A stretch of 64,000 nucleotides of DNA. It comes from Watersipora subatra. Lineage: Eukaryota; Bryozoa; Gymnolaemata; Cheilostomatida; Watersiporidae. The translations under genes were made by a program, and so were the position numbers. Where the stretch lies: contig NC_088712.1 in the NCBI RefSeq assembly GCF_963576615.1, forward strand, positions 7,818,541 to 7,882,540. The letters run 5' to 3'. Numbering within the stretch: the first letter of the stretch is position 1; each line of letters opens with the position of its first letter. Under the pieces are notes generated by a model, which saw only the letters and a program-made list of their open reading frames with translations, searched no databases and had not been told where the DNA came from. Positions 1,827 to 41,796 of the stretch are shown here, one piece after another.

Positions 1827-3216
1827 CTAGATAAAAACAGCTGAGCCTATGCCTGAGATATCTATTACGGGTTGTACAAAGTCACACTTTTTGCAGGTAC
1901 ATTCGTCAGCTCCATTAAGGGATCCAATGTGGCATCCTTTATCTTTGCAATGCTCTCGACATGAGCTCGAGTCACCATCATGAGGGCATCTTTCACATCT
2001 GCAGAGGTTACTATTTGGAATGTGCCGTGAACCTTCGCACAAAACTTGAGCTTGACATAGATATTCACAAGGTAAACACGTGCACGAGAAGTAGTAGCAT
2101 CTTTTTATTTCACCATCGCCACATGTGATCTGCTCGTCACAATCAGATGTAGTTTCACAATTAATACGCATGGAATCCACTAAAATTAAACAGTAGACCG
2201 TAAGTATCAAAACTGAAATATCCACACATTGTGATTCACAACTTAAGCATTGGCAGACATTGTCAATAGAACTTCTTGTCTCACAGTCACTACATGTTAT
2301 CAGCTTTTCACAATCCAAAGAATTGTCACATGACAATGATGCATCAACTAAATTTTTTTTATAAAATATGAGTATCAGCTCTCTCTAATACCTCTGAATC
2401 ACAGAGATTTACCTAGTTGCTTGTCATTTACAACTTTTAGTTTTTTATTTGCTAGTGTATTATTGTTAAAGAGCATTTTAAGCAGATTATTGTGTAACAA
2501 GCATTTTGAAAAAAACACCCTTACAGAGCATTTAAAATTAGTTGAAATTATTCCTGACATATAAAAATAAGAAGTTAGCAAGCCAAAGCTTCCAAGACAA
2601 AATCCTGGCAAATTATAAGAAAAGGCGGTCAAGGCCAACTCTTTTTATGGCAATAAAGGTGCAAAGATTGTGTCGGTAAGTCCTTTATAATTTTGGTTCG
2701 ATACAAGAACAAATACTTGTCTGCGTTATCCTGTGTAAATACATATACAATGAAAATTTGCACTTGCTAGACACTATTTTTAATAAAAAAATCATTTATA
2801 ATACATTATCAATTTTGTTATAATTAAATAGAAATTGTTATAGGAAAAAAATTATCTATAAAACAAAACCAACCTTTTGGATTAAAATAAGTAACTTTTG
2901 ATTTTACACAGAACTTTAATCAAGTTAGTTAAAAGTAGTGTATTTTTTGGACTAAAGTTTTGGTTTCTACGTGCATAACAGGTAATAGAACTATCCAAAC
3001 GCACTTTGATTAAATTGTATCTTATTTGCAAATTTTAAATACTAAAATTTTAGTTTCAAATATTTAAATTAATTTATGGATTACACAATTATGTATTATT
3101 TACTATTATTATTATTAATTATTATCAAATATACAATTATATATCAGTTACTACTAACCTTTTGTTGAGAAGAGTTGTATCGCCAGAATAGCACTGATAT
3201 AAAGAGCGCACTTCAT
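1827..3216 (-). CDS. Secreted 18-cysteine protein, copy 1, with extra half-module
   Basis: Minus-strand spliced gene. The signal-peptide exon is 3159-3246, with its ATG at 3216 (begins MKCALYISAILAIQLFS) and a GTTAGT donor after 3159; coding phase is 1. The mature exon ends at a stop at 1827. Two acceptors fit the same frame. The distal one (after AAATTTAG, exon start 2347) gives 192 aa. The proximal one (after TTTAATTTTAG, exon start 2179), which matches the acceptor of copies 3 and 4, gives 136 aa. The long form adds an eight-cysteine duplicate of the first module, then a hydrophobic linker that is in-frame former intron sequence. The core domain has the family's 18 cysteines in exact spacing. 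The C-terminus is about 17 residues longer than in copies 3 and 4. Product: probably a small disulfide-rich secreted protein of unknown function. Confidence 0.8.
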
Positions 3217-3386
3217 CTCTCTTGTTTGTTTGTCTGCTGACTACAACTGAAATTATAGAGCATTGCTTATTTAAAATATTTATTATTATTAAACAGCTTT
3301 CAAAAATAAAAAAGTGAAATAGAGAACAATTTTTTTAAAGCAAGTTCTTGCTTATTTATACGCTGAGTACACAAGTTTTATCATAC

Positions 3387-3462
3387 CTGACTTCGAATGT
3401 TCTCACATGAGATGGACTATACATTTCAGTGTTTGTGTTTATATTTGATTGTTAACCAATCA
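3387..3462 (-). promoter_or_regulatory. Promoter and 5'UTR exon of copy 1
   Basis: On the minus strand an ATTGG box (3456-3460) is followed by TATAAA (3438-3443). A short 5'UTR exon then ends at 3387 with donor GTCAG/GTATGA. The next acceptor (TAATTTCAG, exon from 3246) leads to the ATG exon. The arrangement CCAAT-type box, TATA-like box, noncoding exon and short intron is shared with copies 3 and 4. The transcription start is inferred, not seen. Confidence 0.6.
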
Positions 3463-3966
3463 CACGCAGTTTAAGACACTAGAGCTTTAAAGTTGATTCA
3501 ACCAATAGGATAAAGATAAATGGAATGTTGGGAGTGTTTTCAGTGTCACTAGTCAACAGGTGGCTGGTATTAGATGCTCGCTCAACCGAAGTGTATCTTT
3601 TACATGCTATTGGTTTTGTTTTACACTTCCTTAATAGTTTCTATTTAAATATCGACGATGCTTGTTTTAGTCGATGTTTTACTATCATGACAGTGTTTAG
3701 GAGCTACATGACACTGAACTCAATCGATTCAGTAGAAAACAATGCATACGAAAATGACAAAGTTTTTCATATTCACCGGCCTAAAATGCATTAGAATAAT
3801 TTTATTGTATACTCATAACGCTTTTTTAAAACCACCAGTTTGAATTTTAGTTGAATCGCAGCTAATCACCAGTTTTAAACATGTTATATTACTCACAACA
3901 TTAAACTATAGACTAGCTACAAATACTAAAATTAATTACGACCGATAGATATCTCATAACAATAAC

Positions 3967-4023
3967 ATTTTGTAGAAAAGAACAGTGTAATTAAAACACC
4001 AATGAAATAAAGTTACAGTTCAT
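3967..4023 (-). pseudogene. Relic signal-peptide exon of another family member
   Basis: On the minus strand an acceptor (CATTTTATTTTAG) is followed by a leader like that of the real copies and an ATG at 4023, then sequence aligning with the family's signal-peptide exon through its donor (GTTATT after 3967). The frame is broken by an in-frame TAA after ten codons, and the coding part is 57 nt instead of 58. No mature exon follows: copy 1's own promoter begins where one would be expected. It is the 5' stump of a tandem duplicate. Confidence 0.65.
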
Positions 4024-4164
4024 TTTTGTGTTAGGTTGTAAGCTAATCACAGCTAAAATAAAATGTGTAAACTATTTACAAGATAATTTAGGATTTCTAA
4101 TCACACAAAATTGCAAAAGAAAGAAAAAAGTATCGTTTTTTATAAAAAAATTCGCTGATCTGTA

Positions 4165-4270
4165 AGGACGCCAGTTTTATAGCTCCTGCCTTCATATGTT
4201 CTTCTTTTAGACAGCATATATATATCACTGCTAAAGTTAATATTTGATTGCTGCTGGATCACATGTAATT
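4165..4270 (-). pseudogene. Relic promoter/5'UTR exon paired with the stump at 3967
   Basis: On the minus strand this matches the promoter and first exon of copies 3 and 4: CAATCAAATATTAACT, then AGAAGAAC, then GAAGGCAG. The donor has decayed: where copies 1, 3 and 4 have GT, this copy reads GA (GGCAG/GAGCTA). This supports loss of function for the 3967-4023 relic. Confidence 0.55.
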
Positions 4271-4299
4271 TAAGATTATGGTATGATTAAGTCTATTTA

Positions 4300-7200
4300 A
4301 TCAATTTTGTTTACCACAAATTGATTTGTTTGGTATTGCGCTTTGACTTGTCCAATCAACTGGTTGTTTGTAGTACATGATAGAGAAACAAAACTGCATG
4401 TCTTGACATATTATTAGCTGCTTTATTGACTTTATTAATAATTTTTTGTTGCACATCCAAGATGCTGTATTGACTTGGCACAGAAACCGTGCAAATCATG
4501 TTCTGCAAAAGCATTTTGATATTGCTGATATCACAATCATTGAAATCTTTTGTAGTCAACTGCACTCTTTTCTCCAAAAAAATTGATCGCAAAGAGATTT
4601 TTGTTGCAAATTTTTGCTGCTGTATATACTGCAGTTACTAGATATCCAATGAAGTATTAACCCGTGAAAACACACTAATAGCTTTTTTCCGGGCCCCTAT
4701 AACTGTACATGAGTTCATTCTTTTTATTTAAAAATTTTTTAGGTGGGGACTAACCAAACTTGTGATGACTTATTTTAAGGTATGCAGTGTGAATGATTAG
4801 GCAGCATGGATACAGTAAGATATATTTGGCAATTTTAAAAGCTAGTTATTTTTTCTCTTAAACCATTAGGATTATTTTGATACATGGTTTTAATTATGCA
4901 TTACCAAGCCTTTCTATGTTACAATTGTATTTATTGCAGTGTTATACCTACTTGAACAGATTAGACAAAGACATTCTGACACCGCTCATAGAAATCTCAT
5001 CATTGAAGAACAACAGGGTAACAAAACTGTGTTTTTCCTTTTGATCATCATCTAGCTCACTCAACAAAAAGGACATCACAGCCTAACAATGTTAAACAAT
5101 GCCCATGCCAAACCTGAATAGTTGCAGCTATGACACGCTTAATGTGACTGAGGCTTTGATATCTACCGAGTCTTTCTAACTATACTTTCATTTTTATTCA
5201 TGCTTACACTAATATGTCTAATAACAACCATTTATAGCGCGACATTTACACTAAAATTTGCGTCAGAAGTGACAAAGGAAAAATACATCAGCATAATATT
5301 ATTGTATCAAATCTATTATTATTACTTTCATCGTGATTATTATTATATAAACACTTATTTGGCTGTAATAAGTACCGTTCTGTTCATACCTAAGATAGCT
5401 GTAAATTCTTTAGTTTTACAACTGTCTTTGTGCCTTGAAAAACTGATTTTTATTTGTTATTGTATCTAAATTTTATAGCTTATGTTAGAAAAGTAAACTG
5501 ATGCATGATTATGGGTATATCTTTATTTAATGGAAATATCCTTTAACTGCAGCAGTGAATGTTAAACACTTTTGTGGGTTATCAATTCAGCAGGGCTCTC
5601 TATTCATTGCAGGAATCGCTACAATAAAGGGATGATCAATCCAAATATAGCGGTTTCACAAACATGGCAAACATGTACATGTATACACAAGCCCCAATAT
5701 ATAAGGGATCTGCATGGTGTATGCTGAACCCATTATTTGAATCAAAACTTGAGTCTTTATGTTAAGAGATTTCATAAGTACAGATAATTTTTAATATAGT
5801 ACAATTAGTATTTGAGTAAAATCTTTCTAAATATAATTGCCAGACAAGTGAACAAAATTCTGTAATTTTACTATTAGTTTCTTGATGCTATTAAGCATGA
5901 AAATTTGTAGATTGCCTTTGTAACCATTTTGTAACCACTCTGGTCATTCATAACCTTCGTACCAAAAAAATGCAAAATATAAGCTCTCCAGTTGAAGGTC
6001 CAAAATTCCCCAAACTAGTTGGTTGATTGACTCAAACGTCTTAATGTCTTTCCTGATATGGATGAATTGGCAATAGCTTTCACTCTTTCTTCTGTTTGTC
6101 TGTTTAAGGAAGTTTCCTGCAATAAGGCTCCTGAAATCTTAGTACATTGTCAACATCACTCGACATTTCTCCCTTATCTGTATTTCTTTGTGACAGGAGC
6201 TGACAGGTGTTTTCACTAAGCTCAATCTGCCACTTTTACTCTAGCTCATACTGACTTGTCAGAACTGACAAATTATTTTTAGCTGGTTACGTAGCTAAAA
6301 CTTTCGGCATTTAGTCATTTTTTGCTTTGCGTTATTTAAAGATGGATTTTAAGATATCTCCTTCTTTGAAAATAATGTTGAAGAATCCGGATTTTTGAAA
6401 CTCGAGCAATCACTTTGAAAGTGATGCAATAAAAACAAATCTATTTATGAACTTTTAATATACACAATAACATACTTTATACTGAGATTTGAACTACAGA
6501 ATAACCACAGCAAACACTTTAATGTTGCAACATCTAACCAAAAAATGTCTGAAGAAATTTAGAAAGTACATTTATGATAGATCAAGCTCATCATGCCTGA
6601 TTTATTAGCTAAGTAGTGGTTTATTTTTGTTCTCTTGGATCAGCTCTTTTAATTTTTGTTGTACCAGCTTAGTTTATTCAAAATTTGGAAAGTGAGTGGT
6701 TTTCTGCATAGATTGCTTAAAACGATTTAAATACTTGCTAAAAAACACAATTTTAGTGTAATCTATGCGTTAATCTTTATTTGAAATATTCTCACACAAA
6801 TTAAATCATTTTCCTGGTTTGTGATTAAATTTTTGAGTCTTTGCCAGTGTTTTATGATATTATACATTGATGTTAAATAACTCTGCAGCAACATCTACAT
6901 TTACTCATTGCTACCTTTTTATGGGTGTTCAAGTGTAGTTGGAAATAAACTTCATTTTTAACAACGGTTTGCTCTAAGGCCAAGTAGATTATCTAGTTTT
7001 TCATATCTGGTTAGACAGTTATGCAGTGATCGTAAGGCTGTTGAAGAAAAACCTTATTACTTATTAACATGTAATATATTGATGTTTCCACTCTAAACCA
7101 ACTCCACTAACATTCTGAAGTAGTCAAACGCAACTCATAAAATGAAAACTTATTAAAATAGTTATGAAAACCATTGATCATCCTTAATTTACTATCTACC

Positions 7201-7620
7201 TTTTAATTTATTTAACAATATTTTTTATAGTTGTATAACTCATTATACCTGCTTGATTCTTCTCATTTCTACATAGTCAGTTAATTTTCAATTGACATAC
7301 ATCATCAAACAAGTTTATTTCAGACAACCATTTTGATTCTCACTAGAGAACAACTGGAAGTTTATGTCATCACTATGTGTTATTTTAGATTATTATAGTA
7401 GACATCTTTATTTTGTGTGGCTATGTAAGTGCTATGTAAGGCTATGTAACTGGCAAGAAACAGAATTTTAAAGTTCATCAAAAGTACATACGATGCTGCT
7501 TTAACTGAGCTGATATTAGACAAAAAGGGCATAGCTGAGCTGATACTAGACAGTTTTAACTGCATTAGACAAATCAAATTTTAGCTCAAGGATAAATACA
7601 TGCGGTTTTTAGTGAAAAAA
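4300..7620. other. No gene seen; duplicated upstream block of copy 1
   Basis: I see no convincing exon. Much of it is diverged copy of the block upstream of copy 3: about 5,580-5,720 resembles 33,110-33,200; about 6,000-6,600 resembles 33,530-34,100 and again 34,190-34,720; about 7,250-7,570 resembles 32,570-32,860. The order differs from that near copy 3, so the block has been rearranged. ATG-started frames of 60-90 codons here have no homology-like features. Confidence 0.55.
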
Positions 7621-8150: not shown

Positions 8151-8199
8151 TGGTATTGGCGTGTCTGAAAATTGTTATTCTAAGTACCAAATACCATTA

Positions 8200-15015: not shown

Positions 15016-15019
15016 AGTA

Positions 15020-17565: not shown

Positions 17566-17569
17566 TTCT

Positions 17570-19110: not shown

Positions 19111-19114
19111 CCTG

Positions 19115-19478: not shown

Positions 19479-20598
19479 ATGAAGTGTTTTGTTCCTTCTT
19501 GCTGTGATCAGCATTGGGTTTAATTTTGCTCAAGGTGAGTTCACATATACATGTAGTTAAACTTTCTAGCATTTTTGTATGCCTATGTTTCCATCTGTTT
19601 TATTTCTCTGACATATTAGACACACTAGCTTATGATAGCTATTTATCGGTTTTCACTTTACGAACATCTAATATAGATTAAATTTGATTGCTTTTGCAGA
19701 ATATTTGAAGCGAATGCATTTGTGCATGTAAAATTATATTGCTAGGACTGCTGCAAAGTTTATACCAACACAAAAAAACCTTTTATTTAGATTGAAAAAC
19801 ATGTGTAGGCTATATATAACGTTTGTGAAACCTAAAATAATTATTAAATAAATTTATGTAGTTTTATACAACAGCTTTTTGCTTGAAAAAAATTGATGGT
19901 GCATGATACACTAGCTCACAAACTTTGCATTTTGATAAGCGACAGAGTTACCGAAAAACTTACTTGTTTACATCCACTACCTTAATCAAATTATCACATA
20001 CAATCTAAACTGTTGTCTTGTACAACTCAAATCCTTTCCGTGAGACTTAAACCTTTAAGTTATTTATCTGAGAAGTTGTTTCCTAAACCTCAGAGTAATA
20101 TTTCACTTTCAACAAGATTGCTATGTTACGTTAGAAGCAGCTGTTTCTAATATTGTGGCATTTCTTCAAAGCAATGTAAAGCATAGAAGAATTGCACAAC
20201 ACCAATTTGTAACAATTTTTTATGATGCACTAGATAAAGGCAAAACAACAAATTTCATGCTGATTTCATTTTCAGCACAATCTCCTGCTCCTCCCTCACT
20301 ATGTCAGGTATCAGCAGATTGCGAGGGATTGCCATTCTGTGGTAGCCATTCTTCAAGAAGCTGTGTTTCAGGATTATGCCAATGCATCTCTTGCAGCTCT
20401 ATATGCACCAACCAAGTTAACTGCGAGAGATCACATCGTGTTGCACGAAACAACGTCTGCAGATGTCACAGGTGTCCGACTGATGGCCTATCGAGGTCAT
20501 GTCGCCAATACTGCAAAGAAAAGGGATGTAAAACTGGTTATATTGATGCACCAGGGCAGTGTGTTTGCAGAAAGTGTGAATATATACATCCAGTGTAA
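19479..20598 (+). CDS. 18-cysteine secreted protein, copy 2, with frameshifted signal exon
   Basis: The ATG (19,479) lies in an exon from 19,449 with a strong CAAG/GTGAGT donor after 19,534. From that ATG the frame stops after 14 codons. The frame that joins correctly in phase 1 to the mature exon, and that reads as a good hydrophobic signal peptide, is offset by one base and has no ATG; the coding part is 56 nt against 58 in the other copies. The mature exon (20,276-20,598, acceptor TTTTCAG) is intact and carries all 18 cysteines in the exact family spacing. It begins after a proline-rich stretch (SPAPP) and ends in EYIHPV. It is the most diverged copy. It could be a recent pseudogene, a sequencing error, or use another first exon. 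Confidence 0.7.
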
Positions 20599-25102: not shown

Positions 25103-26424
25103 TGGTTGTGTTGAATGTAGAATGGTTTTGATAACAAAATTTAACAGAAAGCAAGTATGAGCGTTCACGCGTCTGAAAGTTGTCTGCAAACTGAAGCAAA
25201 ATAAAAAAATGTTTTCGTCATAAAGGGGCGTTGTAGTTTGGCCCTAGCTTGTACATATCCACTTTGTGCAATCCACTGATTTTAAAAAACTATCAAGCAG
25301 TGTTATAGAACATATTTAATGTAGGAGAACTAATAATTTTAATTGCTGATATAATAGCTATCCAGTAGTTTATTTTTTCATCCCTAGCATGTTTTTTGTT
25401 GAGTTAGTTGTTGTAGACAGTTGGTTAACCTAATAGTTGTTTTGTAATGGTATTACTATTTGCAAATGTTGTCATGCGCCTCGGCTGACCTTTGGGTGAT
25501 TTGAACCAACATGTGATATAATACAATTATCTTTTTTACGAAAACACGATATAATAGTTATGTGGTGGTTAATTCTGCATTCCTTTTTTAAATTTTATAG
25601 ATTGTTGTTCTACGTGATTGGTCAACCTGATAATTACTTTAAATAGCTTTTTAAGTTCACAATTTGTTTGTTTCATGGGTCTTTTTCATTCAATACTGCG
25701 ATTGAAGAATTGAAGAATGTGTGGAAAGAATATTATTGCTTTATTTATTGCTGATCTAATAACTATTTCGGAAAAAAATGAAAGAACGACAAATAAATAC
25801 ATGAATCAGCACCAGTTCCACTCATACTCACCCTTTTTCAATATTCCTGATACATGCATCAGCTTTAAAGCTTCACTTTACTGCTTCAGTTAGAGAAGCT
25901 AAAATTTTATTAACAACAAGTTTCTAAAAAAATCTCGTGAGACACGATTATATATGGTGCAATATGATTTATACAAAACCTCTTATTATATCCTATTTAC
26001 TGGTATAAGTTCCTTTACATTCTTTCAGAATAGGTTTTGTGGAAATAGATCCTTACTTAACTTTCTCACTTTCTCACATAATACACAACCTGATTGTCGG
26101 CCTAGAATAACCAAATAAAACAAATATACGTTTATAAGTTATCCCGTTATATCCACCAATTTTATATTAACAACAGACTTATGGTAAACCTCTCATATGT
26201 TAACTTTGCATGATCGTGGTTTAGAGCCTTATTAAGTTTTTTGACAATGTGTTCATTTATATGTAGTTATACTGAATAACAACAGCTAAATAATAACAAT
26301 TGTTATTCACAAACCCTTATTATACTTGTTCCACTACTCACTAAAATCATATGCAAAAAAGAAAATCGCTATGTAATATTTCTTCTATAATATGTACTTT
26401 TTTGTTTATGCCAAAACTTGCTGC

Positions 26425-26490
26425 ATATGCTTGACTGCTACATCTGTGTTTGGACCTCTAAAACTAATTTTAATGTGTTATTCTGGCTAA
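26425..26490. repeat. Direct repeat of about 65 bp (partner 27,681-27,750)
   Basis: Both copies contain 'tgcttgactgctacatctgt' followed by 'gtttggacct'. They bracket the TA satellite and first long hairpin of this region. A related inverted match lies near 42,940. Confidence 0.75.
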
Positions 26491-26577
26491 GGCATACAGC
26501 TAGGAATGAATCAGTAATTGAAGCGATCACAGGTCGGCGCCATGTCTCAACGTTTTGGTAGTTGCTCAATTGACAAT

Positions 26578-26653
<76 letters not shown>

Positions 26654-26943
26654 GTGTATATATATATATTGTTATAACATATATAAATAACAAAATATAA
26701 CATATATAATATATATATTGTTATAACATAAATATATATATATGTATATATATATTTATATAACAATATATAACATATATAATATATATATAGCCTATAT
26801 ATTGTTATAACATATATATATTTAACATATATACAACATATATAATATAAATATATATATTATACATAATATATATATGTTATATGTATATAATATATAT
26901 ATATATATATATTATATATAGTATATATATTATATATACATAA
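26578..26943. repeat. TA microsatellite and TA-palindrome array
   Basis: A pure (TA)n run from about 26,581 is followed by interrupted TATATA blocks with repeated 'ttgttataacatata' motifs. No coding frame is real here. Confidence 0.95.
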
Positions 26944-27008
26944 AGTAGATGCTGCACAGTTCGTTACAGAGTGCTCAATGATAAATCGGAGCTAAATTAT
27001 AAAATTAT

Positions 27009-27226
27009 AAAATATGTATAAGTGGAACTTCCCTCTATAAGTTAAACATTTTATTACTAGTAGTTTCATGTGGTACAATAAGTATCACACTCTTCAGATA
27101 AAATTTATAAATGCCTATACATTTTTAGACATTTTATTTGAAGAGTGTGATACTTATTGTACCACATGAAACTATTAGTAATAAAATGTTTAACTTATAG
27201 AGTGAAGCTTCATTTATACATATTTT
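27009..27226. repeat. Long hairpin, about 96-bp arms
   Basis: The left arm (27,009-27,105) is the near-perfect reverse complement of the right arm (27,131-27,226), around a loop of about 25 bases. There are a handful of mismatches. It is flanked by TA-rich tracts on both sides (26,578-26,943 and 27,220-27,340). It could be a fold-back element or a source of hairpin RNA. Confidence 0.9.
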
Positions 27227-28030
27227 ATATTATATATACAATATATATAATATTTAATATATATAGTATATATAATATATATAAATATTATATATAATAA
27301 ATTTATATATTATATATATAATATATATAATATATACCAATATAGTGTTTTATTTATTTTGGTTGATTATTTCTCATTTTCAGACACTGGGGAAGACGCT
27401 CTTATTCCATTTTGAGCTACTTGAATGTTTTCAATCAGGCCTGCACTTCCTAGTTGCCAGTTGGTTTCTAAAGGTCAGGCAACTAATTAAGAGCAACACT
27501 TGGGAGTTTTGGTGACGGTCTAAGCCCCCCAATGGGATTCGAGGCAGTGCCCCAAAGTTCTGGAACTTTTAAGCTTTAACATCCCTCAAAATAACAACCA
27601 ATAATTCAATGAATGGTATAAAACTCATGACACTACAGATTTCTGTAAGGGACATTGACAGACCAAGAGCTGCCAAAGATTGCTGCAAATGCTTGACTGC
27701 TACATCTGTGTTTGGACCTCAAAACTAATTTTAATGTTTTATTCTGTCTATAATTTGAATTGTGTGTTTGACTCTTTCTACACATACAGTTATTATTATA
27801 AATCATAATCATACATAAAAAACTAAAATCATCTTTTAGCTGACGTTCTCTTCACTAATGTGTCTTTACATAGTACTTGTACTTGTGAGTTTAAAATATT
27901 TTATTAAATAGTCTTAAACTTAATGCTGTAAACTTAAACTATAATCTTAAACTATATTTTTCGGCGGCTGAGTACTAAGAATTGCAGTCTAAGTCCATTC
28001 GCTTGGAATTACTAATTACTAATTAATAGA

Positions 28031-28135
28031 GCTCTAGCGCTAGTCGCGCTCTAGCGCGACTAGCGCTAGAGCGCGTAGTCAGATATCCGTACATTTCATC
28101 GCTAGTCGCGCTCTAGCGCGACTAGCGATGAAATG
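28031..28135. repeat. Two GC-rich perfect palindromes sharing one core
   Basis: The first has 18-bp arms (28,031-28,048 and 28,055-28,072). The second has 19-bp arms (28,092-28,110 and 28,117-28,135). Both have the spacer CTCTAG and the same inner arm sequence (CGCTAGTCGCG), but different outer arm sequence. They stand out as GC-rich in AT-rich surroundings. Confidence 0.95.
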
Positions 28136-28208
28136 GAGAGGCTCACTAATCTAGTACATATTGGTTTTGCCCGCCACTAATGCAGTGATGAGGAGCGCTA
28201 CAGGACAG

Positions 28209-28400
28209 GCTCGTCTAAATAATCCTCTAATATTACACATGTATAAAGATATTGAAATAGATGCAGAATCAGTTGTGAAAGATTTTTGCCATAAAAGAAG
28301 TAGTATTACTTCTTTTATGGCAAAAATCTTTAACAACTGCTTCTGTATCTATTTCAATATCTTTATACATGTGTAATATTAGAGGATTATTTAGACGAGC
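28209..28400. repeat. 192-bp near-perfect palindrome
   Basis: The arms at 28,209-28,302 and 28,307-28,400 are 94 bp each, with a 4-bp spacer (GTAT) and only about three mismatches. The two opposite-strand frames over this region are mirror images of each other and are not evidence for a gene. Confidence 0.95.
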
Positions 28401-28829
28401 ATGCACCATAATGCTCTTCATCGATGTTTTGATTCAACATTGATTAAGTTTTATATGATAAGGAAAATGCAAGTTTCAGAATCTACTTCACACCCCCACT
28501 AGAAACAAAAAAGTTCAGTTTTCAAGTCATAACAAAGTCTCGCAACATCACTCATTTGGCGAGACCACCCGAAGACAATATAGAATGCTAGTTGCTAGTT
28601 AATTAGTGTTGAAAATTCTAAGTGAAGGAACTTAGACTGCAATTCCTGGTACTTAGCCGGCTAAAATCACTAAAAAGTAAGGGTTGCTTAGCCGCCCAGC
28701 CACCCCAAGGAATACGGGAGTGTTTGCAAGATAATTAAAGACTTGTTGTAGTGGAACACTCATGAAAAGAGAAAAGAGGAAGAGAGGAAAAACCTGCCTG
28801 CCGTAACAGCTTGAATACAGTAGCACTCC

Positions 28830-29165
28830 ACTGACTTTGAAAAACTATTAAACAGTGTTATGGAACATATTTAATGTAGGAGAACTAATCATTTCAATTG
28901 CTGATATATTAGCTAACCAGTAGTTTATTTTTACACCCATAGCATACTTTTGTTGAGTTAATTGTTGTAGATAGTTGGTTAACCTAATAGTTGTTTTGTA
29001 ATGATATTACTATTTGCAAATGTTGTCATGGATACAAGCTTTAAAATTGCTGCAGTAAAATGGTTAATTAAAGATGCAACGGCTGACTTTTGGGTGATTT
29101 GAACCAACGTTTAATATAGTATATTTATCTTTTTCATGAGAACATGGTATAGTAGCTATGCGTTA
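28830..29165. repeat. Dispersed repeat family member
   Basis: Closely matches 25,270-25,565, including 'gaacatatttaatgtagga' and 'ggttaacctaatagttgtt', and belongs to the family described at 8,200-9,160. Confidence 0.7.
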
Positions 29166-30003
29166 TATATATAAGCAAAGTCAACCTATACCTGACACTC
29201 TCTTCACTAATACGCATTTACATAGTACTTGTACTTGTGAGTTTTAGATCTGGTATTAAATAATTTTTAGCCTAATGCTGCATTAAGAAAACATGTTGGT
29301 AGAACCAAATGTCCACTAAAAGTTGCAAAAAAGATTAAACCAAGGCATGATTATGAATGCATAAAATTGTGATATCTTCAATAATTATATCTTTGCAAGT
29401 AGTCTAGGCTATTTTTATCTAAAGCTAGGAAGCTAACTTTTCTTAAATATTTTTTCAACATAACATGAATGCTTGCTATATTCTTGTTGTATCTACTCAG
29501 CAGAGTTCTCTATTGATTACAAGACTCTTTAAAATGAAAGAGGGGCTATTCCACCAATAAGTGTTTCTCTAATCTGGCATAAATAAATATGCAGCCTTTG
29601 ATTAATTAAAAACCAAGTTGGGCTATGATTTATAGAAATATAAAGTTTGCTTGTCATGTTGGACACATTTGTTGCTAGGTATCAATGCGTATAGAATAAG
29701 TAAAACAACTATGTGCCCTGCTCTGCACTATAACTAACGTGAGTTTATTATTGCCTAATTGTAATTATACACAGAGCTTACGATTGAGTATTTTAGTAAG
29801 AATTTGGTTTGCAACTAACTATGCATATCAAGTATGCATGCTTTTTAGTTAAAAGTCAGATATCCGTACAATCTTAGTTCTTGATAAAGAATATTTTATT
29901 ACTTGCTCACAGTTTACTGTTTTGGACTCTGGTTGAATATTTTTGGTACGGTCTTGAAATGATGACAGAAATAAAATTTTGAAAAAGTCATTCACTTTAG
30001 CTC

Positions 30004-30009
30004 TTTATT
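30004..30009 (-). terminator. Polyadenylation signal AATAAA, copy 3
   Basis: AATAAA on the minus strand about 190 bases past the stop. It lies in sequence shared with copy 4, whose AATAAA is at the same relative place, so conservation supports it. Confidence 0.65.
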
Positions 30010-30200
30010 TTGGAACTTGATATTTCAATTTTTTCTAGCGTACAATAAAGTAAATATCAGTAAAAGAAAGTTTTTTGTTTCATTTATGACATATCTTTGT
30101 GACAATTTTGATATAAGACAACACATTGTTTTAACAATCAGTTGATAGTTGTATTGGTAATTAACCAATCTTGGTTCAGTACAAGTGGAGCATGTGCATT

Positions 30201-31303
30201 TTAACACATTCTGCAGAAACAGTCATTGTATCTAGCAATGAACAACCCATGGCGACATCCTTTCTCTATGCAATTCAGTTGACATGACCTCCAGTCACCA
30301 TGGTGACGGCATCCTGAACAGGTGCAGAGGTTATTTCTTGAACCGCGAAGTGGCCTTGTGCACATGATTCCGAGACGACATACCTCATCACAAGTTTTAC
30401 AGGCGCACATTTCATCCATGCAGCTCCTTACTTTATCATTACCACATGTGATCAGCCCCTCACAATCAGATGAAAATTGACAAGAACTAATCTCTGCATT
30501 GGAATCAACTAAAATTAAACAGGGAAGTATGAGTATCAAAGTTGAGATATGTCTGATTGACAGTGCTTTACCTTCCTTGTTTGCCAAACTTATGCTTTTA
30601 CAAAGAATTTCTATATATAGAATTGAATAACTTCTATTTATAAAGAATTTTGATAGCCAATAATTGTTTACCACAAGTTCAAAACATAATTGTCTTCAGA
30701 AAACTGAAAATTACACTATTATTTTAGTCAAATTACTAACAGCTTGCCTCTATTAACGAGATGAAAATTTTGGCTCTCAAGAAAATATTCTTACATTAAA
30801 TGACAAATTTTCTAAAATAATTCTTACTTTGAAAACGATAATACAAATATTGCTCTAGTAAAGTCTTTATGATATTTGTCTACATATCCTTGTGTAAATA
30901 TATAATGATAAATTACAGTTGATAGATGCTAGATTTAATAAACAAACACATGACAAAAATTTATCAAGGTAGTTAAAAACTATGTAATTTTTGACTGAAC
31001 ACAAAACTATGATTTAGTTGAAAGAGATGATTACTAGCTTGTCATGCTTTTGTATCTCTACATGTACAATGAGTAACAGGATGAAAGTATCTCTGAAAGT
31101 CTTTTTTGAAACCATCAAAAGGAAGTTCAATGAATAGTATCTAAGAAATAGAGTTAATTATATGGTGTTAATTACGGTACGACAATAAAAATTAGTTATA
31201 GATAGTAAGTTTAACTAATACAAATGTATATTGATTACTACTAACCTCTTGCGGAAAAAAACAGTGTTATCATAGCAGCGAAGAAACAAGGAGCACACTT
31301 CAT
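30201..31303 (-). CDS. Secreted 18-cysteine protein, copy 3
   Basis: Minus-strand two-coding-exon gene of 121 aa. The signal exon is 31,246-31,330, with its ATG at 31,303 (begins MKCAPCFFAAMITLFFSAR), GTTAGT donor and phase 1. The intron is about 740 bp. The mature exon is 30,201-30,508, after acceptor GTTTAATTTTAG; its stop TAA follows CRMC. Signal cleavage is plausible near VDSNA. The mature part has 18 cysteines in the family spacing and three CxCxxC motifs. A motif GATGAG/GTATGT at the end of the first module resembles a splice donor. Very close to copy 4 and divergently oriented from it. Function unknown; extracellular disulfide-rich peptide inferred. Confidence 0.9.
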
Positions 31304-31455
31304 TTTTGTTACTTTGTCAGCCAACCTCAACTGAAATTAGAAAGAGTAAATTATCTTCAAAAATATGAACTATTTTCAAACCATGCAAAAGTGAAAAAGT
31401 GAATAGTTTTCTCGAAACCAAGTTTTTTCATGTGTATTTAAGTTCACTTGTTTTA

Positions 31456-31540
31456 TAACACCTGCCTTTTAAAGTTCTTCTGTGAACTGGACTGTACTTG
31501 TCAGTGCTTGAGTTAATATTTAATTGTTGTCCAATCACTG
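31456..31540 (-). promoter_or_regulatory. Promoter and 5'UTR exon of copy 3
   Basis: Minus strand: GATTGGACAA at 31,527-31,536, TATA-like AATATTAACT at 31,511-31,520, then a 5'UTR exon containing CACAGAAGAACTTTAAAAGG. The best donor is GGCAG/GTGTTA, ending the exon at 31,462; copy 4 splices a few bases earlier. The following acceptor is TAATTTCAG, with the exon from 31,330. Confidence 0.6.
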
Positions 31541-31869
31541 CACGCCTAAGACTCTTACATGGTGAAGCTCACTTAACCAATTGGAATTAAGCAAAAATGA
31601 AATGTTTGGTAGTGCATTGAATTTCACTAATGAACACTTTGTTTTAAGCGGATGTTACAGATGATGCATGTTTATCTCAATAATGCTTGCTTGGTTGGCT
31701 TTTATTATCATGACCCATTTTTGTAGACATAGTAGCTGCAGTTCTTTACAGTGACAAAACTTTGGCATGGCTTATGTTTCTATCATTTAGTTATATTGCG
31801 GTTAACTGCATTCTTATGTAAAAACATTATGGCATACAAGTGTGGGTTGAAAAAGTCTCATTATAGCTG

Positions 31870-34800
31870 GTTTATTGGCTAGAGAGTGGTTGATTTTTGC
31901 ATTTTCATAATAACTTTTTTAATTTGTTGCTTTACGAGCTTGGTTTGTCAGAATTTATTTAGTTGGTTTCTGCATGTTTTTGCTTATGGCTGCACCTACT
32001 ATAATATGGAAAAAACAATTTTCTGGTGTTTTTTCTGCATCTTAGGTTGTTGGCTTTTTCCAGTATTTAATTCAGATTATGTCCTGGTGTGTTTTACCCA
32101 TCGTTATTATTTGAAGTAATATTCTCATTTTTGTTACCTTGTGGTAATTTCATGAGTCCTCACAGGCGATGTATTATTATGTCAGCTGATGAGTTTTACC
32201 ATTTACAATTACTCCTTGAAATATCTTTACAGATTACCGAATATAGTTTTAAATAAATTTGATTTTCAAAAATGGTTTGATTTTAACACAGGTTGATTTT
32301 TTAATTTTTTATTTCTGGTTAGACAGCTGAACATTGGTTTTATTGCTGACTTGAAAGAAAATTATTACTTGTTAGCATATATCATATTGATTTGTCTATT
32401 TCAAACCACCTACAGTAAATATGCCAAATTCATGAGTAGCCTGTAGAATAAGAAAATTTGTTAAAAGAGTTAACAAAAACTATTCTTAGCTTTTGATTTA
32501 TTAGTTTCACTTTATTTCAACATTATTTTAATAACTTGTTTACCTAGTCTTTTTATTTGAATGATTGACCTCACTATACACAGTCAATTAATTTTTAAGT
32601 GATTCACTTCATCAAAGAACTTTATTTTATACATTCTGTTTAATGGTCAACAACTAGTGAACAACTAGAAGTTTATGTTATCGCTGTGTATCAGTTTTGA
32701 TTATTAAAGTATACAATTTTATTTTGTGTGGTTATGTGAAACAGACCGTGTGAAACGACAAAAATAAGAACCTTGAAGTTCATCAAAAGAATTTATGGTG
32801 CTGCCTTAGCTGAGCTGATATTACGTATAAGGGGTCACAACCAAGCTGATATTGGACAGTTTCTACAGCCCTCGACCAATTAAGTGAAAGTGGTTTTTGA
32901 TAAGTTATTATGTCTCCATTTTATACTTTTTGTTAGATAATAAACTGGAGCACGATTATAAATGCATATTTTATGGTGCTTTCAATCTTTTTTGGTAGGA
33001 GCGTTTGCTTGTTTTGGCTATATCCAGCATACTTATTGTCTTTTCTTCATAAAAAAACATGCCATCACAGTAGCAGACAATGTTAGCTACTTTTATAGTT
33101 CAGTAATTCAAAAGGGCTATTTATTTATTGCTGGAATCTTTACAGTAGAATGGTTTTAACTTCAACTCTAAGGGCTTCACAAATCTGGCACACACTTACA
33201 TGCACCTGCAAGCTGCAATATGTGAGAGATCTGGTCGGTATACTTTCTATGTATTATTTGAAATAAAACTTGACTCTTTATGTTACGAGCGTGTTTTGAT
33301 AAGTACAGATAATTTTAATGCAATTAGAATTATTTTTGAGTATTATATTTTTAATTATAATTGCATGACAAGTAAACAAAATGCTGTCATTTTATGATTA
33401 GCTTATTGATGCTATCAAGGATACAATTTTGTAGATAGCCTTTGTCATCATTGTAGACATTCATAACTTTTGTAGTCAAAAGGTGCAAAGAAATATGTCA
33501 AGTGGATGGTTCAAAAGTTTCCAATCTAGTTAGTTGATTGATTCAATGGTCTTAATGTATTTCTTGACTTGAATTGGCAAAAACTTTCCTTCTTTTTTGA
33601 TTTGCCTGCTTAAAGAAGTTTCCTGCAACAGGGCTCCTCAAATTCTAGAACACTGTCAACATCACTCGACACTTCTCACTTATCTATACTTATTTGTGAC
33701 AGATGATGACAGGTGTTTTCACTAGGCTCAATCTGCCAGTTATGTTCTAGCTCATAGTCTGCCACCAGAGCTGACAGTTTTTTTAGCAGGTTATTTAGCT
33801 AAAACTTTGCGGAAACTAGTCATTTCTTTTGCTTTGTGGTATTTAAATATAGATTTTAAGGAATCTCCCTCTTTCAAAATAATTTTGAAGAATCCGGATG
33901 TTTAAAACTCGGTTAATCACTTTGCAAGTGATGCAATAAAAACAAATACATGTATGAACTTTTAATATGCAAAACCAAATAGTTTGCACTGAGTTTTGAA
34001 CCACATAATAACCACATCAAACATATTAACGTTGCAACATCTAACCAATAAATGTCGGAAGAAAATTAGAAAGTACATTCATGACAGTTAAAGCTCATCA
34101 TGGCTGATTTATTAGCTAGGTAGTTGTTTATCTCTGCTTTCTTGAAACCGCTCCTTAATTGTTGTTGTACCAGCTTATTTTATTCTTACTGTTTACCTGC
34201 TTGAGAAAGTTTACTGCAATAGGGCCCCTCATATCCTAATACCCTGTCAACATCACTTGACATTTCTCACTGATCTGTACTTCATTGTGACAGGAGATGA
34301 CAGGTGTTGTCAGTCACCTCGATCCGTTACTTTTGTTTAGCTCATAGTCTGTCACAAAGGACAAAGGCTGATATATTATACTTTTAGCTATTTAGGCAGC
34401 TAAACCTTTGCGACATCTAGTCTGTTCGTTGGTTTTATGGTAATTAAATGCAGATTTTAAAGAATCTGCCTCATTGGAAGAAGACTTGTGAGAAACCGGA
34501 TTTTGAAAATGGAGTAATCAATTGGAAAGTGATACAATTAAAACAAATCTATTTATTGACTTTTACTATGCACAATAACATACTTTATACTGAGTTGTGA
34601 ACTACTGAATAACCACAGCTAACATAATAATGCTGCAACATCTAACCAAAAAATTGTCTAAGAAAATTTAAAGGGTACATTTGTGACAGTTCAAGCTCAT
34701 CATGGCTGATTTATTAGCTAGGTAGTTGTTTATTTTTGTTTTCTTGGATTAGCTCTTTTAATTGTTGTTGTGCAAGCTGATTTTATTCAATTGTTCGCAT

Positions 34801-35500: not shown

Positions 35501-35582
35501 TTTTTTGTAGCTTTCCTCACTTTCATCAATATATAATATATATTAAAATATATATATATAATTTATATACATATAATATATA

Positions 35583-35852: not shown

Positions 35853-37611
35853 GATCTTATCACGTAAAATACTTTTCACACATTTGTGAAAAGCATAATG
35901 AAGTATGCTTGACATGTTAATAATGCTCCTCAAATATTACTATTATTATCTTCAAAAAGTATTCATAAATGCCGTACACTTGCAATACTGAATCTCTGTA
36001 ATTTCTGAGTCCCGGTCATTTCTGATTTAATATCTAGCTGTCGGTTTATTTTCTTATTCTATTCACACATACATCAACTTTGTTGTTGTGTCAGTTTGGT
36101 TTGCTTCAAGGTTGGTTATTTACTAACTTACTCTTTGGTATTTTTACTTGTTAGTGATACATTGTAGAAAATTGTTGCTTCTTTATATTTTTTGTAAACA
36201 TAGATATGCAATAGCACTAGTAGCATTAGCAGTAGTTGAATTATGTGACAAAAGGTATAACATATAGCTTTGTAGTGAGTTGAAAAAGTATCTGACGTAA
36301 TTAAACAACTATTTGAAGAGGTTTTATCCTTAAAACTTATATCTACTGAAAACACAAATTGGCAGTTGCTTGAGAGTTAAAAGACACACAATGTACAGAA
36401 GAAGTGTTTGCCCAAGAATGTTAAACAATTGAATATTAATGAAAACATCTTCTTAGGCATTTGCGGATAAATGGTGTTTTTCAGACTGTGGTAACAGCTG
36501 ACACAAACAAAAATTAATGCAAATGTTTAAAGTACATGTATCTTATCATGTAAGAATATAGGTCAATTCAATTAAGCAGGTGCAACAACAGATTAAAAGA
36601 GTTATAAGAAGAATGTCAAAATATACAAACAGCTAGCTAATAAATAAGCAGTGGTAAGAGTTAGTTATCACTGAACGGCTCCATAACTATTTAAAAATAC
36701 TTTTACTGGTTAGTTGTGACATCTTTGATCTTTTTACAGAGGTTCTTCCGGAGTTCACAGCTCAGTCTAAATCATGTATAGAGGTGCTCAAAAAGCAATC
36801 TAACAATTCGGTTTGTTCTTATTACTTTAAACCAGTAATTACAGCTGCATGAAACTTTGTATATAAAGCGGAAAAAAATTGAAACATTGACATGAAGAAA
36901 CTGGTGCTTAACTGTCTAAAATGCCAAGAAAATCAAATGGTCAGCCTTGACTACAATGGATCTAATAAAATACATCAAGTATAATTCAAACTAAATTTAT
37001 TTGCTCCCCTATTGAGATATTGCCATGATTAAGTGCTGATAGCCAGAGAAATAGAGATCAAGACTGACATGGTAGTAAAAGAATTGTCAGAACTGGTGTA
37101 GCTAGCCACTACGCAGAAAAAATTAAGAATTTTACTTAAATCAAAAATTGTTCCTTTTGCAGACAGAAGGCAGTATGTTTTCAATATGGTACATGTACAT
37201 TGTGTATTTGTGGTTTATTTGTGAGTTACATCCTAACTTTTGTATATTTCTATGTTTATGACGCTGGATACTACAAAAAAACAAAAAGATGTATAACTGG
37301 TACACCAAACTTTGATAGAAACACAAGTCATACGTATTGTAAATGTATGGCTTCATACCATTTTTGCCACCAAAACATGATTGCGTTGTTTTTTGCTAAT
37401 TATTTGCTTACATGACTCACACTAATGATTACAACTGAATTGAATGTTATATGTAGTCAAGTGTAAATAAGAGTTGACGCTGGCAAACATAAACTGTAGG
37501 TATAGAGAATTTAAGCAAACGTTCTAACAAAAATGAGTATAAATCTCTATTATCAAAACATTCAAGACATTTTAACATTTTCATTATAGATAAACAAAAA
37601 TGTTTACAGGC

Positions 37612-37848
37612 TTGCAATCATAAGCGAGAAAGCTACCCCAAAGTAAACAATGGAATAAAAACTCTTTAAACATGACTATTTCAATGCCTGACAAAAATAC
37701 CTCTATTAGCTTACTAATCTTACCATAGCAATAAATTCATGTAAATAGTGCTAATAATTACTGAAAGTGATAGAGGTGCCATAGATAAACGACATGACAG
37801 ATATTGATAAAAGCAATATTCGTAGTCAAGTTATGGTCTAGTTGCAAT
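37612..37848. mobile_element. 223-bp dispersed element with possible 7-bp target duplication
   Basis: The body 37,619-37,841 recurs at 47,172-47,394 with the same 223-bp length and only about six to eight differences. Here it is flanked on both sides by TTGCAAT (37,612-37,618 and 37,842-37,848), as expected of a target-site duplication. It starts CATAAGCGAG and ends TATGGTCTAG. No terminal inverted repeat and no coding capacity are seen. Confidence 0.6.
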
Positions 37849-37885
37849 TGTTCCAACGACTATTGATTGTGGTACAGCTTGCCCT

Positions 37886-37981
37886 ATCTTTGCCTACATA
37901 GCCTCAGACAGCTATATCTACTGTTTGAATAAAATCTTTGCCTACATAGCCTCAGACAGCTATATCTACTGTTTGAATAAA
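37886..37981. repeat. Tandem duplication, two exact 48-bp units
   Basis: 37,886-37,933 is repeated exactly at 37,934-37,981. The left part of the unit is an inverted match to about 13,270-13,320. Confidence 0.95.
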
Positions 37982-40469
37982 TTAAAAAGCTAGTAAATTT
38001 ACTGTAGGTACATATTTGTAAATAGTAGTTTAATTAAGTAATATACTTTATCAACTCACGAGAAAGGTAAATCTTATACTTTTTGTTACATGTTCCCACA
38101 TATCACATGCTAGTGCTTAGGTATGTTAACATAAAAACAAAACAGAAACAACATTATTCTACATAGTATCAATAACAAGTAAAATGCTAATGAGTATTAT
38201 AGCAAATAACCAACAATAAGGTTAAACAAACCAATGCAACAACAATCTTGATGTAGGTATAGATAAAAAAATAAACCGATCTCTAGATATTAATTTAGAA
38301 ATTACCGAGACTCATAAATGACAGGGATTCAGTATTGCAAGTGTGCAGTGTTTTTGAACACTTTTAATAGGATCTTCAAGTCGATTTACAGCTTTTAATA
38401 TTTTTTTTACGTTTAGTATAATAATTTAGTTTGGAGATAGAGAAGGAGAGAGATGTAGGTTATCAAGTACAGAGGTACTTGTAAAACAGGTCAATAATCT
38501 TGTCTGTCTTTCTATTTAAAGAGCATTATTAACGCGTAAAGCATGCTTCATATAGCGTTTAACATTCTTGGTAGCTGCGATGCACACAAACAACTTCACA
38601 CCAATAATGTAATTAGGCTTCATCAAATGGTGTTTTTATGTTAGATGTTTTTAAAATCACAACAAGGCCATCTGGTATACATTTTTTATGCACATTTGAA
38701 TGCTGCAGATGATAAATAAGGACATAATTATACTTACAAAAAACCAAACAAATACCATAAAAAATCTTACTCAAAGTATTAATAGAATGTAGAAATACTT
38801 AAGAGCAAGGTAATAGATAATCATCGACAATGTCACTGTAACTCGCTGTGACTGAATAGAGCAAACTGCTTATCATACTGTAAATCATAGGGTAATTGGA
38901 TACTCAATAAATGCTTCTGTAACCAGGTTTAAAACTGAGTTATCATTGATCAATATGAATAAACAATTTTAAAAAAAACTTATCTTGACATCATATCGAC
39001 ACTTTATACTTATATTGATAAGAGTATTGAAAGTATAGTTTGCATATCAACCAAATTACACAGTTTCTATGCATCTAAATTGGGTCCCTCAGGTATTTGG
39101 TTGACCGATATGAATAGTTGTGAATCGCCACTCTCAAGGCATGCCAACACACAGAACCACTCTATTTAGGTCCTATTGAGTCAAGGTTATTAGCACTAAC
39201 GTCAACAAAAATTTGATTCATCCAACGTAGTTAAAACTGTCTAATATGAGCTCAGCTAAGGCAGCACCATATGTCCTTTTGATGAACTTCAAAATTCTGC
39301 TTTTTTTTTGTTCCACATGGTCTGTTTCACAATGTCACACTAAATAAAATTGGGTAATTTAATAATCAAAACTAAAAGTTAGTGATAACGCAAACTTGTA
39401 GTTGTTCACTAGTGAGCATCAAACTGAATGTGTAAAATCATTTTGTTTGATGAAGTAGATCACTTAAAACATTATTGACTGTGTATAGTGAGGTCAATCA
39501 AGGAGATAAAATGATTAGATAACAAAGTGTTAAAATAATATTACAATACAACGCAATATAACTGATAAACCTAAAAAAAAAGTAAAGGTAAAGTTAACTT
39601 TTGCAACAATGTTGTTTAATTGGTTAATCATAAAAAACTAGACAACCAACCTGTGCTAAAATCAAACCATTTCTGAAAATCAAATTTAATTAAAACTACA
39701 TTCGGTAATTTGTAAAGATATTGCAATGAATAGTTGTAAATGGTATAAATCATCAGTTGACATAATAATGTATCACCTATGAGGACTCATGAAATTAACC
39801 ACAAGGTAACAAAAATAAGAATATTACTTCAACTAATAACAACATGTAAGACACACAAAGACATAATATGAATGAAAGAACTTGAAAAAACGACCAACAT
39901 AAGATACAGAAAATACCTAAAAATTTGTCTTTTCATGTTGTAGTAGGTACAGCCAAAAGCAACAACATGCAAAGCTAACTACACATAAATAAATATAATT
40001 TTGATAAACCAAACTGGTAAAACAACAAATTAAAAAAATTTATTATCAAAACGCAGAAATAAACTGCTCTCGATAGCTAATAAATCAGATATGACGGATT
40101 TATGCAACCTACACTTGTATGCTGCCATATATTTTCACATAAAAATGAAAGGAATAGCAATTAATCTAATTGATAGATACATTTGCCATACCAAAATTTT
40201 GTCATTGTTCAGAATTGTTGCGACTATGGCTACAAATAAGGGTCGTAATAGTAAACTCTCCACCGAGCAAAGATTGTTGAGACATAAATAGAAAGCCTCC
40301 TTGAGGATGTCAAACAAAACCAATAAAACATAAAAATAAAATTGTTGGTTGCTGGAACATCTACCTAAAAATACTTTTGACTGGTAACATCAAATGCAAC
40401 ACCAACAATTTTATATTTTTTTATTCTTGATTGGTTAAGTGAGCTTCACCATGTGAGAGTTCTAAGCTG

Positions 40470-40545
40470 TCTGTGATTGGACAACATTCGTATATTAACT
40501 CGAGCACTGACTAGTATAATTCATATCACAGAAGAACTTTAAAAG
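40470..40545 (+). promoter_or_regulatory. Promoter and 5'UTR exon of copy 4
   Basis: GTGATTGGACAA at 40,473-40,484, TATATTAACT at 40,491-40,500, then a 5'UTR exon ending at 40,545 with a strong donor AAAAG/GTAAGT. The acceptor TAATTTCAG precedes 40,682. A second ATTGG box lies near 40,430. Box order and sequence match copy 3. Confidence 0.65.
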
Positions 40546-40708
40546 GTAAGTTTTATAAAACTATTGTGTTTAAATACACGTTAGCTAAAGTACGTCTTGA
40601 GAAAACCATTTTCTATTTCAGTCTTGCATGATTTGAAGAAATTTCATTATTTTGAAGATAATTTACTCTTTGTAATTTCAGCTGAGGTTGGCAGACAAAC
40701 TAACAGAA

Positions 40709-41796
40709 ATGAAGTGTGCTCCTTGTTTCATCGCTGTTATGATCGCAATGTTCTTTTCTGCAAGAGGTTGGTGGTAGTCAATATAAATTTGTATTACTTG
40801 AGGCTCTTATTTGTAACTAATATTCATCATTGTACCGTAATTAACACAATATATTTAATTCTATTTATTAAATATCATTCAGCAAAGTTCATTTTGATGG
40901 TTTCAAAATAGTATTATGATCATGAGATACCCTCATCCTATTACTCATTACACGTGTAGAGATACAAAAGCATGACAAGCTATAGTTATCACTTTTAACT
41001 GAATTATAGTTTTGCGTTTAGTCAAAAATTATATAATTTTTACCTAGCTTGATCTTGTTTCATCATGCGCTTGCTCATTAAATGTAGCATCTATCAAGTG
41101 TAATTTATCATTATATATTTATGCAAAGAGATGTAGACAAATATCATAAAGACATTACCTGAGCAATATTTGTAATATCATTTTAAAAGTAAAAATTTTT
41201 TCAGACAGTTGTTCATCTAGTGTGACAATAAGTTTTTTTGAGAACCATGACTTTCGGCTCGTTAAAAGAGACAAGCTCTTAGTACTTTGCCTATAAAATA
41301 ATGTATTTTTCTATTAGCTGCAGACATTTATTTTTTTAATTTGTGTTAAGCAATTATTGGCTATCGAAGTGGTTTGTAAATATTTTAGTAGCAAACAAGC
41401 TGAAAGCATAAATTTGGCAAACAAGGAGGTAAAGCACTGTCAATCAGACATATCTCAGTTTTGCTACTCATACTTTACTGTTTGATTTTAGTTGATTCCA
41501 ATGCGGCGGTAATTTCTTGTGAAACTTCATTTGATTGTGACGGGCGGGTCACATGTGGTGAGCGTAAAACAAGGAGTTGCATGGCCAACATGTGCGCCTG
41601 TAAAACTTGCGATGAGGTATGTCGTCTCGGAGTCATGTGCACAAGGTCACTTGGCGATCCAAGAAATAATCTCTGCAACTGCGATGGATGCCGTCACAAT
41701 GGTGACTGGAGGTCATGTCGAATGAATTGCATACAGAAAGGATGTTTCTTTGGGTTCATTAATGATAACGATGACTGCAGCTGCAGAATGTGTTAA
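40709..41796 (+). CDS. Secreted 18-cysteine protein, copy 4
   Basis: Plus-strand gene of 120 aa. The signal exon is 40,682-40,766, with its ATG at 40,709 (begins MKCAPCFIAVMIAMFFSAR), donor AAGAG/GTTGGT and phase 1. The intron is about 725 bp. The mature exon is 41,492-41,796, after acceptor GTTTGATTTTAG. The signal peptide plausibly ends near VDSNA. The mature domain has 18 cysteines in the family spacing and three CxCxxC motifs; conserved non-cysteine positions include R(N)NLC, GDxRSC and KGC. The third module (CxxxC, then C, then CxC) recalls CSalphabeta defensins. It is the cleanest copy: every splice site is canonical. Frames that start upstream of 41,492 run into intron and are not real. 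Confidence 0.9.

Follow-up and report, generated by a model that had tools for sequence, protein, structure and literature searches.

A cluster of 18-cysteine, three-module genes with a defensin-related third module in the bryozoan Watersipora subatra

We analysed a 64,000-nucleotide (nt) stretch of chromosome 5 of the bryozoan Watersipora subatra (NC_088712.1, positions 7,818,541-7,882,540; hereafter the window) that contains four gene copies, c1-c4, whose mature parts each carry 18 cysteines arranged in three small modules. Judged by profile comparison, the third module is a relative of the insect- and mollusc-type defensins with a cysteine-stabilised alpha-beta (CS-alpha-beta) fold. The best overall explanation, which we hold with somewhat better than even confidence, is that these genes encode secreted three-module proteins in which modules 2 and 3 are CS-alpha-beta repeats and which act in extracellular host defence. 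The observations on which it is built are the gene anatomy, the existence of a family, the homology of module 3, the likeness of modules 2 and 3, the constancy of the cysteines and the patchwork make-up of c1; from these we infer secretion, fold, disulfide bonds, target and defence.

Anatomy of the four genes

Open frames with 18 cysteines in the mature part lie at 1830-2180 (reverse strand), 20275-20595 (forward), 30204-30509 (reverse) and 41491-41793 (forward) of the window. The parts of the four copies are as follows.

3456-3506, reverse: c1, two ATTGG boxes, 46 nt apart
3159-3216, reverse: c1 exon 1 with start codon and leader, its phase-1 end lying before the GT donor (read directly)
2225-2347, reverse: c1, half-copy of module 1 upstream of exon 2, with its own acceptor and a frame open into exon 2
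1827-2179, reverse: c1 exon 2, three modules, 18 cysteines and a C-terminal tail
19479-19534, forward: c2, region homologous to exon 1, its conserved ATG not in frame with exon 2
20276-20598, forward: c2 exon 2, three modules, 18 cysteines
31531-31581, reverse: c3, two ATTGG boxes, 46 nt apart
31246-31303, reverse: c3 exon 1, leader
30201-30508, reverse: c3 exon 2, 18 cysteines, last loop one residue longer
40430-40480, forward: c4, two ATTGG boxes, 46 nt apart
40709-40766, forward: c4 exon 1, leader
41492-41796, forward: c4 exon 2, 18 cysteines
41515-41610, forward: c4 module 1 (C1-C7)
41608-41691, forward: c4 module 2 (C7-C12), a probable repeat of module 3
41689-41793, forward: c4 module 3 (C12-C18), CS-alpha-beta or defensin-related by profile

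A sequence-only reading of the window had described three sub-modules that each end in CxCxxC, and this motif indeed occurs three times in every one of the four mature exons. The same reading took the cysteine spacing to be identical in all copies, which holds for c1, c2 and c4 (5,5,7,4,1,2,3,5,11,1,2,8,3,4,10,1,2) and not for c3, whose last long loop has 11 residues instead of 10. Its picture of a disulfide-rich, clustered family that varies between the cysteines was borne out: c3 and c4 are identical at 46 of 75 non-cysteine residues, the other five pairs are alike at only 14-23 of 75-81, and all 18 cysteines are kept throughout. Because the cysteines are kept despite so few common residues between them, and because copies with the same frame exist elsewhere in the genome, the likeness of c1-c4 is more than chance. 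A profile built from c1-c4 found no further intact copy within the 64-kb window.

In c1, c3 and c4, exon 1 codes for a short hydrophobic leader (its character assessed by eye and by a hydrophobicity score); the exon stops in phase 1 at a GT, and an in-register AG acceptor follows. Going by this leader exon, the three products are likely to be secreted. The common phase-1 intron after a signal peptide that had been proposed for all four copies is present in these three, and in c2 the conserved ATG is out of frame and is followed by a stop after 14 codons. The open frame of c1 has 27 cysteines in all, owing to the upstream half-module. Common promoter boxes had likewise been claimed for every copy; in c1, c3 and c4 the ATTGG pair lies 232-290 nt upstream of the ATG, as it does in a related copy upstream of the window (L003), whereas the boxes of c2 are spaced differently. 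In a second upstream copy (L005) the boxes lie 290-336 nt before the ATG.

According to the excerpted text of PMC6435467, the defensin genes of scorpions, molluscs and arthropods have a phase-1 intron before an unsplit mature exon. By sequence, c1, c3 and c4 appear to have this anatomy and c2 does not. Outside the window, a phase-1 acceptor before an unsplit mature exon was seen in all nine copies examined, the acceptor being chosen by eye from the one to six AGs of each frame as the T-rich one, which leaves two bases of the split codon. A loose scan of the flanks yielded a phase-1 leader-exon candidate in four of the nine (L003, L031, L036 and L040) and not in the other five; the best candidates of L039 and L034, in phase 2 and phase 0, were not accepted.

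The defensin-related module and its cysteine pairs

When the module-3 profile was built from five cluster rows, five chains of the PDB matched at E<=10, namely insect defensin A (0.031), sapecin (0.088), lucifensin (0.2), the channel blocker MarkTX-7 (0.34) and a venom polypeptide (0.85). With 13 rows, 21 chains matched, from micasin as the best (6.2e-5) to a weakest E-value of 6; the runners-up were the 2b68 defensin (0.0052), aligned along the full module with its final CxCxxC, and insect defensin A (0.0065). Nineteen of these 21 chains are defensins, defensin mutants, nasonins, drosomycin, channel-blocking toxins or a venom polypeptide, several being variants of one protein and therefore not independent, and EC88 and 7pz2 were left unclassified. 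The 19 chains have the CS-alpha-beta fold in common. Sapecin and drosomycin are named as members of that class in the excerpted text of PMC5116183. Two column-shuffled controls, both made from the 5-row profile, gave no defensin-type match (none of six matches, all ribosomal chains, for one control; no match at all for the other); the shuffling also shifted the single gap column, so that in each control a loop of four of the five rows was a residue short.

The full-length 5-row profile matched six PDB chains (E 0.2-4.9) with complement-regulator chains at the top, and in this search module 3 was the part covered by the venom polypeptide (0.33) and by insect defensin A (0.56). The sequence-only reading had called the family unrecognised. 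Over the full length this stands, with no Pfam family for the four frames and no PDB match for c4 as a single query; for the parts it does not, in view of the resemblance of module 3 to CS-alpha-beta defensins and of module 2 to module 3.

The cysteine-stabilised helix motif (CxxxC together with CxC) is present in modules 2 and 3 of the aligned rows; the five cluster rows lack it in module 1, and the diverged L030 lacks it in module 3. Across the wider family, module 2 aligned to module 3 in hhalign with an E-value of 4.7e-5, a probability of 68% and six cysteines in register. By its likeness to module 3, module 2 would also be CS-alpha-beta. Readings of the cysteine pattern as EGF-, WAP- or EB-like were dropped for want of a profile match; for module 1 they are still candidates.

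In the ten-cysteine reference array given in the same excerpt (PMC5116183), C3, C4, C8 and C9 hold the helix, the fold is completed by a C2-C6 bond, and some members have C5-C10 as a fourth one. Modules 2 and 3 of the window copies keep the residues for C3, C4, C5, C8, C9 and C10, and in each of them CxxxC would bond CxC and the cysteine after the helix would bond the final cysteine of CxCxxC. The bonds predicted for c4 are C7-C10, C8-C11, C9-C12, C13-C16, C14-C17 and C15-C18. Because C6 is absent from both modules of c1-c4, we call the window copies CS-alpha-beta-derived, on sequence grounds, and not defensins proper. The residues of the C2-C6 bond are present in module 3 of three relatives, L039 (chromosome 6:282698) and L036 and L040 (chromosome 10, 52.0 Mb), where the array is complete with eight cysteines (C-x2-C-x3-C-x4-C-x4-C-x4-C-x-C-x2-C).

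We also compared the optional cysteines in 24 frames, among them L055-L057, which are nearly identical, L033, which is truncated, and L005, whose frame is broken. The extra module-1 cysteine (CxxC) and the turn cysteine of module 2 go together in 23 of 23 frames (both present in 18, both absent in c1-c4 and L005), and the extra cysteine before module 3 and the turn cysteine of that module in 21 of 21 (both present in L036, L039 and L040, both absent in 18); the counts were made by eye, with L033 left out of both and L005 and L030 out of the module-3 count. Such joint presence and absence is how bonded partners would be expected to behave. More tentatively, and with rather less than even confidence, we propose a chain of three CS-alpha-beta modules that interlock at C7 and C12, each of these cysteines closing one module at the start of the following one, with an optional bond perhaps joining modules 1 and 2; we further propose, with the same confidence, that about twenty such genes form a diversifying bryozoan repertoire of secreted recognition or defence proteins.

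Cluster, wider family and loop change

A genome-wide search with the c4 core found six places at E<=0.001, all on chromosome 5 at 7.787-7.860 Mb. Two of them, L003 and L005, lie outside the window on its upstream side; L003 has an open exon 2, and L005 has a frame change in module 3. Further upstream on the same chromosome are a relic at 7.778 Mb and a diverged 20-cysteine copy at 7.758 Mb. Within the window, three further features belong to the history of the cluster.

26131-32764, reverse: inverted segmental duplication, left arm with c3 (matching blocks 76-88% alike)
39302-43211, forward: right arm of the same duplication, carrying c4
About 47795-48186, reverse: decayed fifth copy, in pieces with broken frames (profile E 0.006 and 0.17 for two pieces)

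The duplicates c3 and c4 are 81% identical in the intron and 83% in exon 2. For c1, the nearest copy changes along the gene: promoter with exon 1, intron and first half-exon are nearest to L003 (79, 69 and 84% identical), module 1 after the second acceptor is nearest to c4 (76%, against 75% for L005 and 73% for c3), and module 3 with the 3' side is matched over its whole length by L003 (72%) and in part by c4 (71% over 111 nt). This is a patchwork of the kind that unequal exchange between neighbours would leave, and the window would hold one section of a cluster in which genes of a bryozoan family undergo birth and death.

Searched genome-wide at E<=10, c2 as the query gave 23 places (28 candidates scored) and L039 gave 18 (21 candidates scored). 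Some of the listed places (for example L042, L059 and L060) are not member-like and were unused, and L035 and L037, frames with stops, were left out. Relatives beyond the cluster lie on chromosomes 2, 5, 6, 7, 10 and 11; they include three genes with 22 cysteines in the mature part (chromosomes 10 and 6), a 16-cysteine group on chromosomes 2, 7, 11 and 5, and further relatives on chromosome 5. In a 20-row family tree, 5 of 17 inner branches were well supported, which makes it usable for close pairs only. The 16-cysteine relatives L055-L057 on chromosome 5 (9.58, 11.06 and 11.12 Mb) are nearly identical while up to 1.5 Mb apart, as recent duplication or exchange at a distance could produce.

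The sequence-only reading had proposed a comparison of non-synonymous with synonymous change (dN/dS, omega) between copies, which favoured rapid change in c1, c3 and c4 and lost significance in every set that contains L003. For the three copies, a codon model gave an omega near 0 at the cysteine columns and of 2.5 elsewhere (p 0.0007; reached by none of 200 neutral simulations), and 1.74 (p 0.04) with one omega for all columns. Pairwise values were 2.3 for c3-c4 (p 0.03; 1.7, p 0.18 with one class) and 3.2 for c1-c3 (p 0.0009); comparisons with c2 were at or close to saturation at synonymous sites. Once L003 is added, the data do not support positive selection throughout the cluster. A safe reading of these sequences is that the cysteines are held and that the loops appear little constrained and partly pushed to change.

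Several other sequences in and around the window were recorded. Two inverted repeats at 27006-27229 and 28187-28422 (with arms of 106 and 116 nt that are 92 and 91% complementary, and spacers of 12 and 4 nt) may be hairpin-type mobile elements or fold-backs. Frames recognised by eye as reverse-transcriptase-like flank the window on both sides (L013:525-3802 and L021:772-3055), and rhodopsin-type-receptor-like frames, also recognised by eye, lie about 47-60 kb downstream (L021:6841-9999, reverse; L022:9182-10000, forward). Pfam searches of ten other long window frames, an Rfam search at gathering score and a tRNA scan returned nothing above cut-off in the window. Elsewhere in the assembly, the first 120 bases of the largest chromosome (C1) consist of CCCCAAA repeats (TTTGGGG on the other strand), not TTAGGG, possibly an unusual telomere or a satellite; nothing alike was seen at the two ends of C5, and the start of C2 reads N.

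Defence and the competing explanations

In the explanation that we favour, the family would make secreted proteins of about 100 residues with three small cystine modules in tandem. The leader would export the protein, up to nine disulfides would stiffen the chain of modules, and variable loops between fixed cystines would bind variable targets in an extracellular host-defence role, while duplication, unequal exchange and loop change would renew the set. Given the defensin kinship, host defence would be the likeliest use, and we infer it from the defensin-type module, the defensin-type gene structure and the faster-than-synonymous change in one three-copy set. Net charge ranges from -7 to +7 over 20 members, which makes killing by positive charge an unlikely general mechanism, and the cationic antimicrobial peptide was ruled out on this ground as a general description of the family; the variety of loops and charges suggests the binding of particular targets over general membrane killing.

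Besides this spread of charge and the missing C6, a number of results weigh against the explanation. Pfam returned no defensin family for c1-c4, only isolated unrelated matches at E 0.13-0.34, and for the relatives it returned sub-cut-off matches to Toxin_2, Toxin_3, Nodulin_late, chitin-binding-like and EGF_Teneurin models, L036 reaching 1.4e-4 against the plant late-nodulin model, which is below that model's cut-off. Within the five cluster rows, module 2 aligned only weakly to module 3 (E 0.0052, probability 7%, 13 columns). In PDB searches module 2 had no match with the 5-row profile, and with 19 rows its matches ran from E 0.3 to 5.3, with two spider toxins of another fold at the top and two maurotoxin chains, at E 4.6-5.0, that span the module. 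Module 1 had no PDB match with its 5-row profile, has Cx5C in place of CxxxC in the window copies, and in the cluster rows resembles modules 2 or 3 still less than these resemble each other. As for the genes, c2 has no usable start and L003 has 21 cysteines, an odd number. The paired gain and loss of cysteines may reflect one or two events in the tree, with kin counted repeatedly. Finally, the omega of 1.8 for the pair of c1 and c4 was not significant (p 0.06) and values ran from 0.80 to 1.43, not significant, in all five sets with L003; the patchwork of c1 bends such tests, and the cysteine class is defined by being conserved.

Among the alternatives, we regard as unlikely that the fold is as we propose and the job another one, that of a venom-like, feeding or competition effector that blocks channels or proteases of neighbours or prey instead of acting on microbes. 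Channel-blocking toxins and a venom polypeptide are indeed among the profile matches, neutral and acidic members suit target-specific binding better than membrane killing, and the loop change in c1, c3 and c4 would be expected of such effectors too. Nothing in this analysis points to a venom organ, however, and the defensin-type gene structure and the many scattered paralogues, which immune families often have, speak against this reading. A structural or matrix role as a cystine-rich protein of cuticle, skeleton or adhesive would agree with probable secretion, cystine density, repeated modules and the absence of a cationic bias; we consider it improbable, since not only the cysteines but also the loops carry the likeness to defensins (it was lost in the two shuffled controls) and the loops of c1, c3 and c4 change fast.

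The remaining alternative, to which we give the least credence of the three, is that the CS-alpha-beta-like cysteine pattern arose by chance in a lineage-specific cystine module of EGF-, knottin- or EB-like type. The module-1 pattern, which is not CS-alpha-beta, the weak match of module 2 alone to spider toxins, the lack of a Pfam defensin match and the C6 missing from the window copies would all fit such convergence. Set against them are the module-3 profile, with its best E-value of 6.2e-5 and 19 of 21 matches to defensin or toxin chains, the complete eight-cysteine array of three relatives, and the phase-1, defensin-like gene structure.

Compared with known systems, the closest likeness of module 3 is to CS-alpha-beta defensins such as insect defensin A, sapecin, 2b68 and micasin, with which it has in common CxxxC, a glycine near the helix end and CxC; 2b68 keeps the same register over its whole length, including the last CxCxxC. 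Unlike these defensins, the window proteins have several modules per chain, lack the residue for C2-C6 and are not cationic overall. Mussel mytilins, as described in the excerpted text of PMC7168163, have C-x3-C-x4-C followed by CxC and a last cysteine after two residues, and their C2-C6, C3-C7 and C4-C8 pairs (mytilin numbering) would be kept in the window modules. However, a mytilin has just one domain of about 34 residues, extended at the C-terminus and strongly positive in charge, and is encoded in four exons; its C1-C5 pair is absent from the window modules. More than one defensin unit per chain is also reported for plant MtDef5 and bird AvBD11, but these have two units and not three; MtDef5 has a 7-residue linker and AvBD11 is a vertebrate beta-defensin, whereas in the bryozoan proteins one module ends and the next starts at C7 and again at C12.

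Big defensins have been reported in the bryozoan Flustra foliacea (excerpt of PMC7203481) and resemble the present family in being bryozoan defence peptides. That was the one bryozoan big-defensin report among the matches listed in the open-access literature; these matches included no bryozoan CS-alpha-beta protein and no three-unit animal CS-alpha-beta chain, and the immunity of Bryozoa, a whole animal phylum, seems from these sources to be little described. The relatives with and without single disulfides can help to show which bonds the fold depends on, and the family as a whole is a ready gene set for testing if tandem joining and diversification of defensin modules took place.

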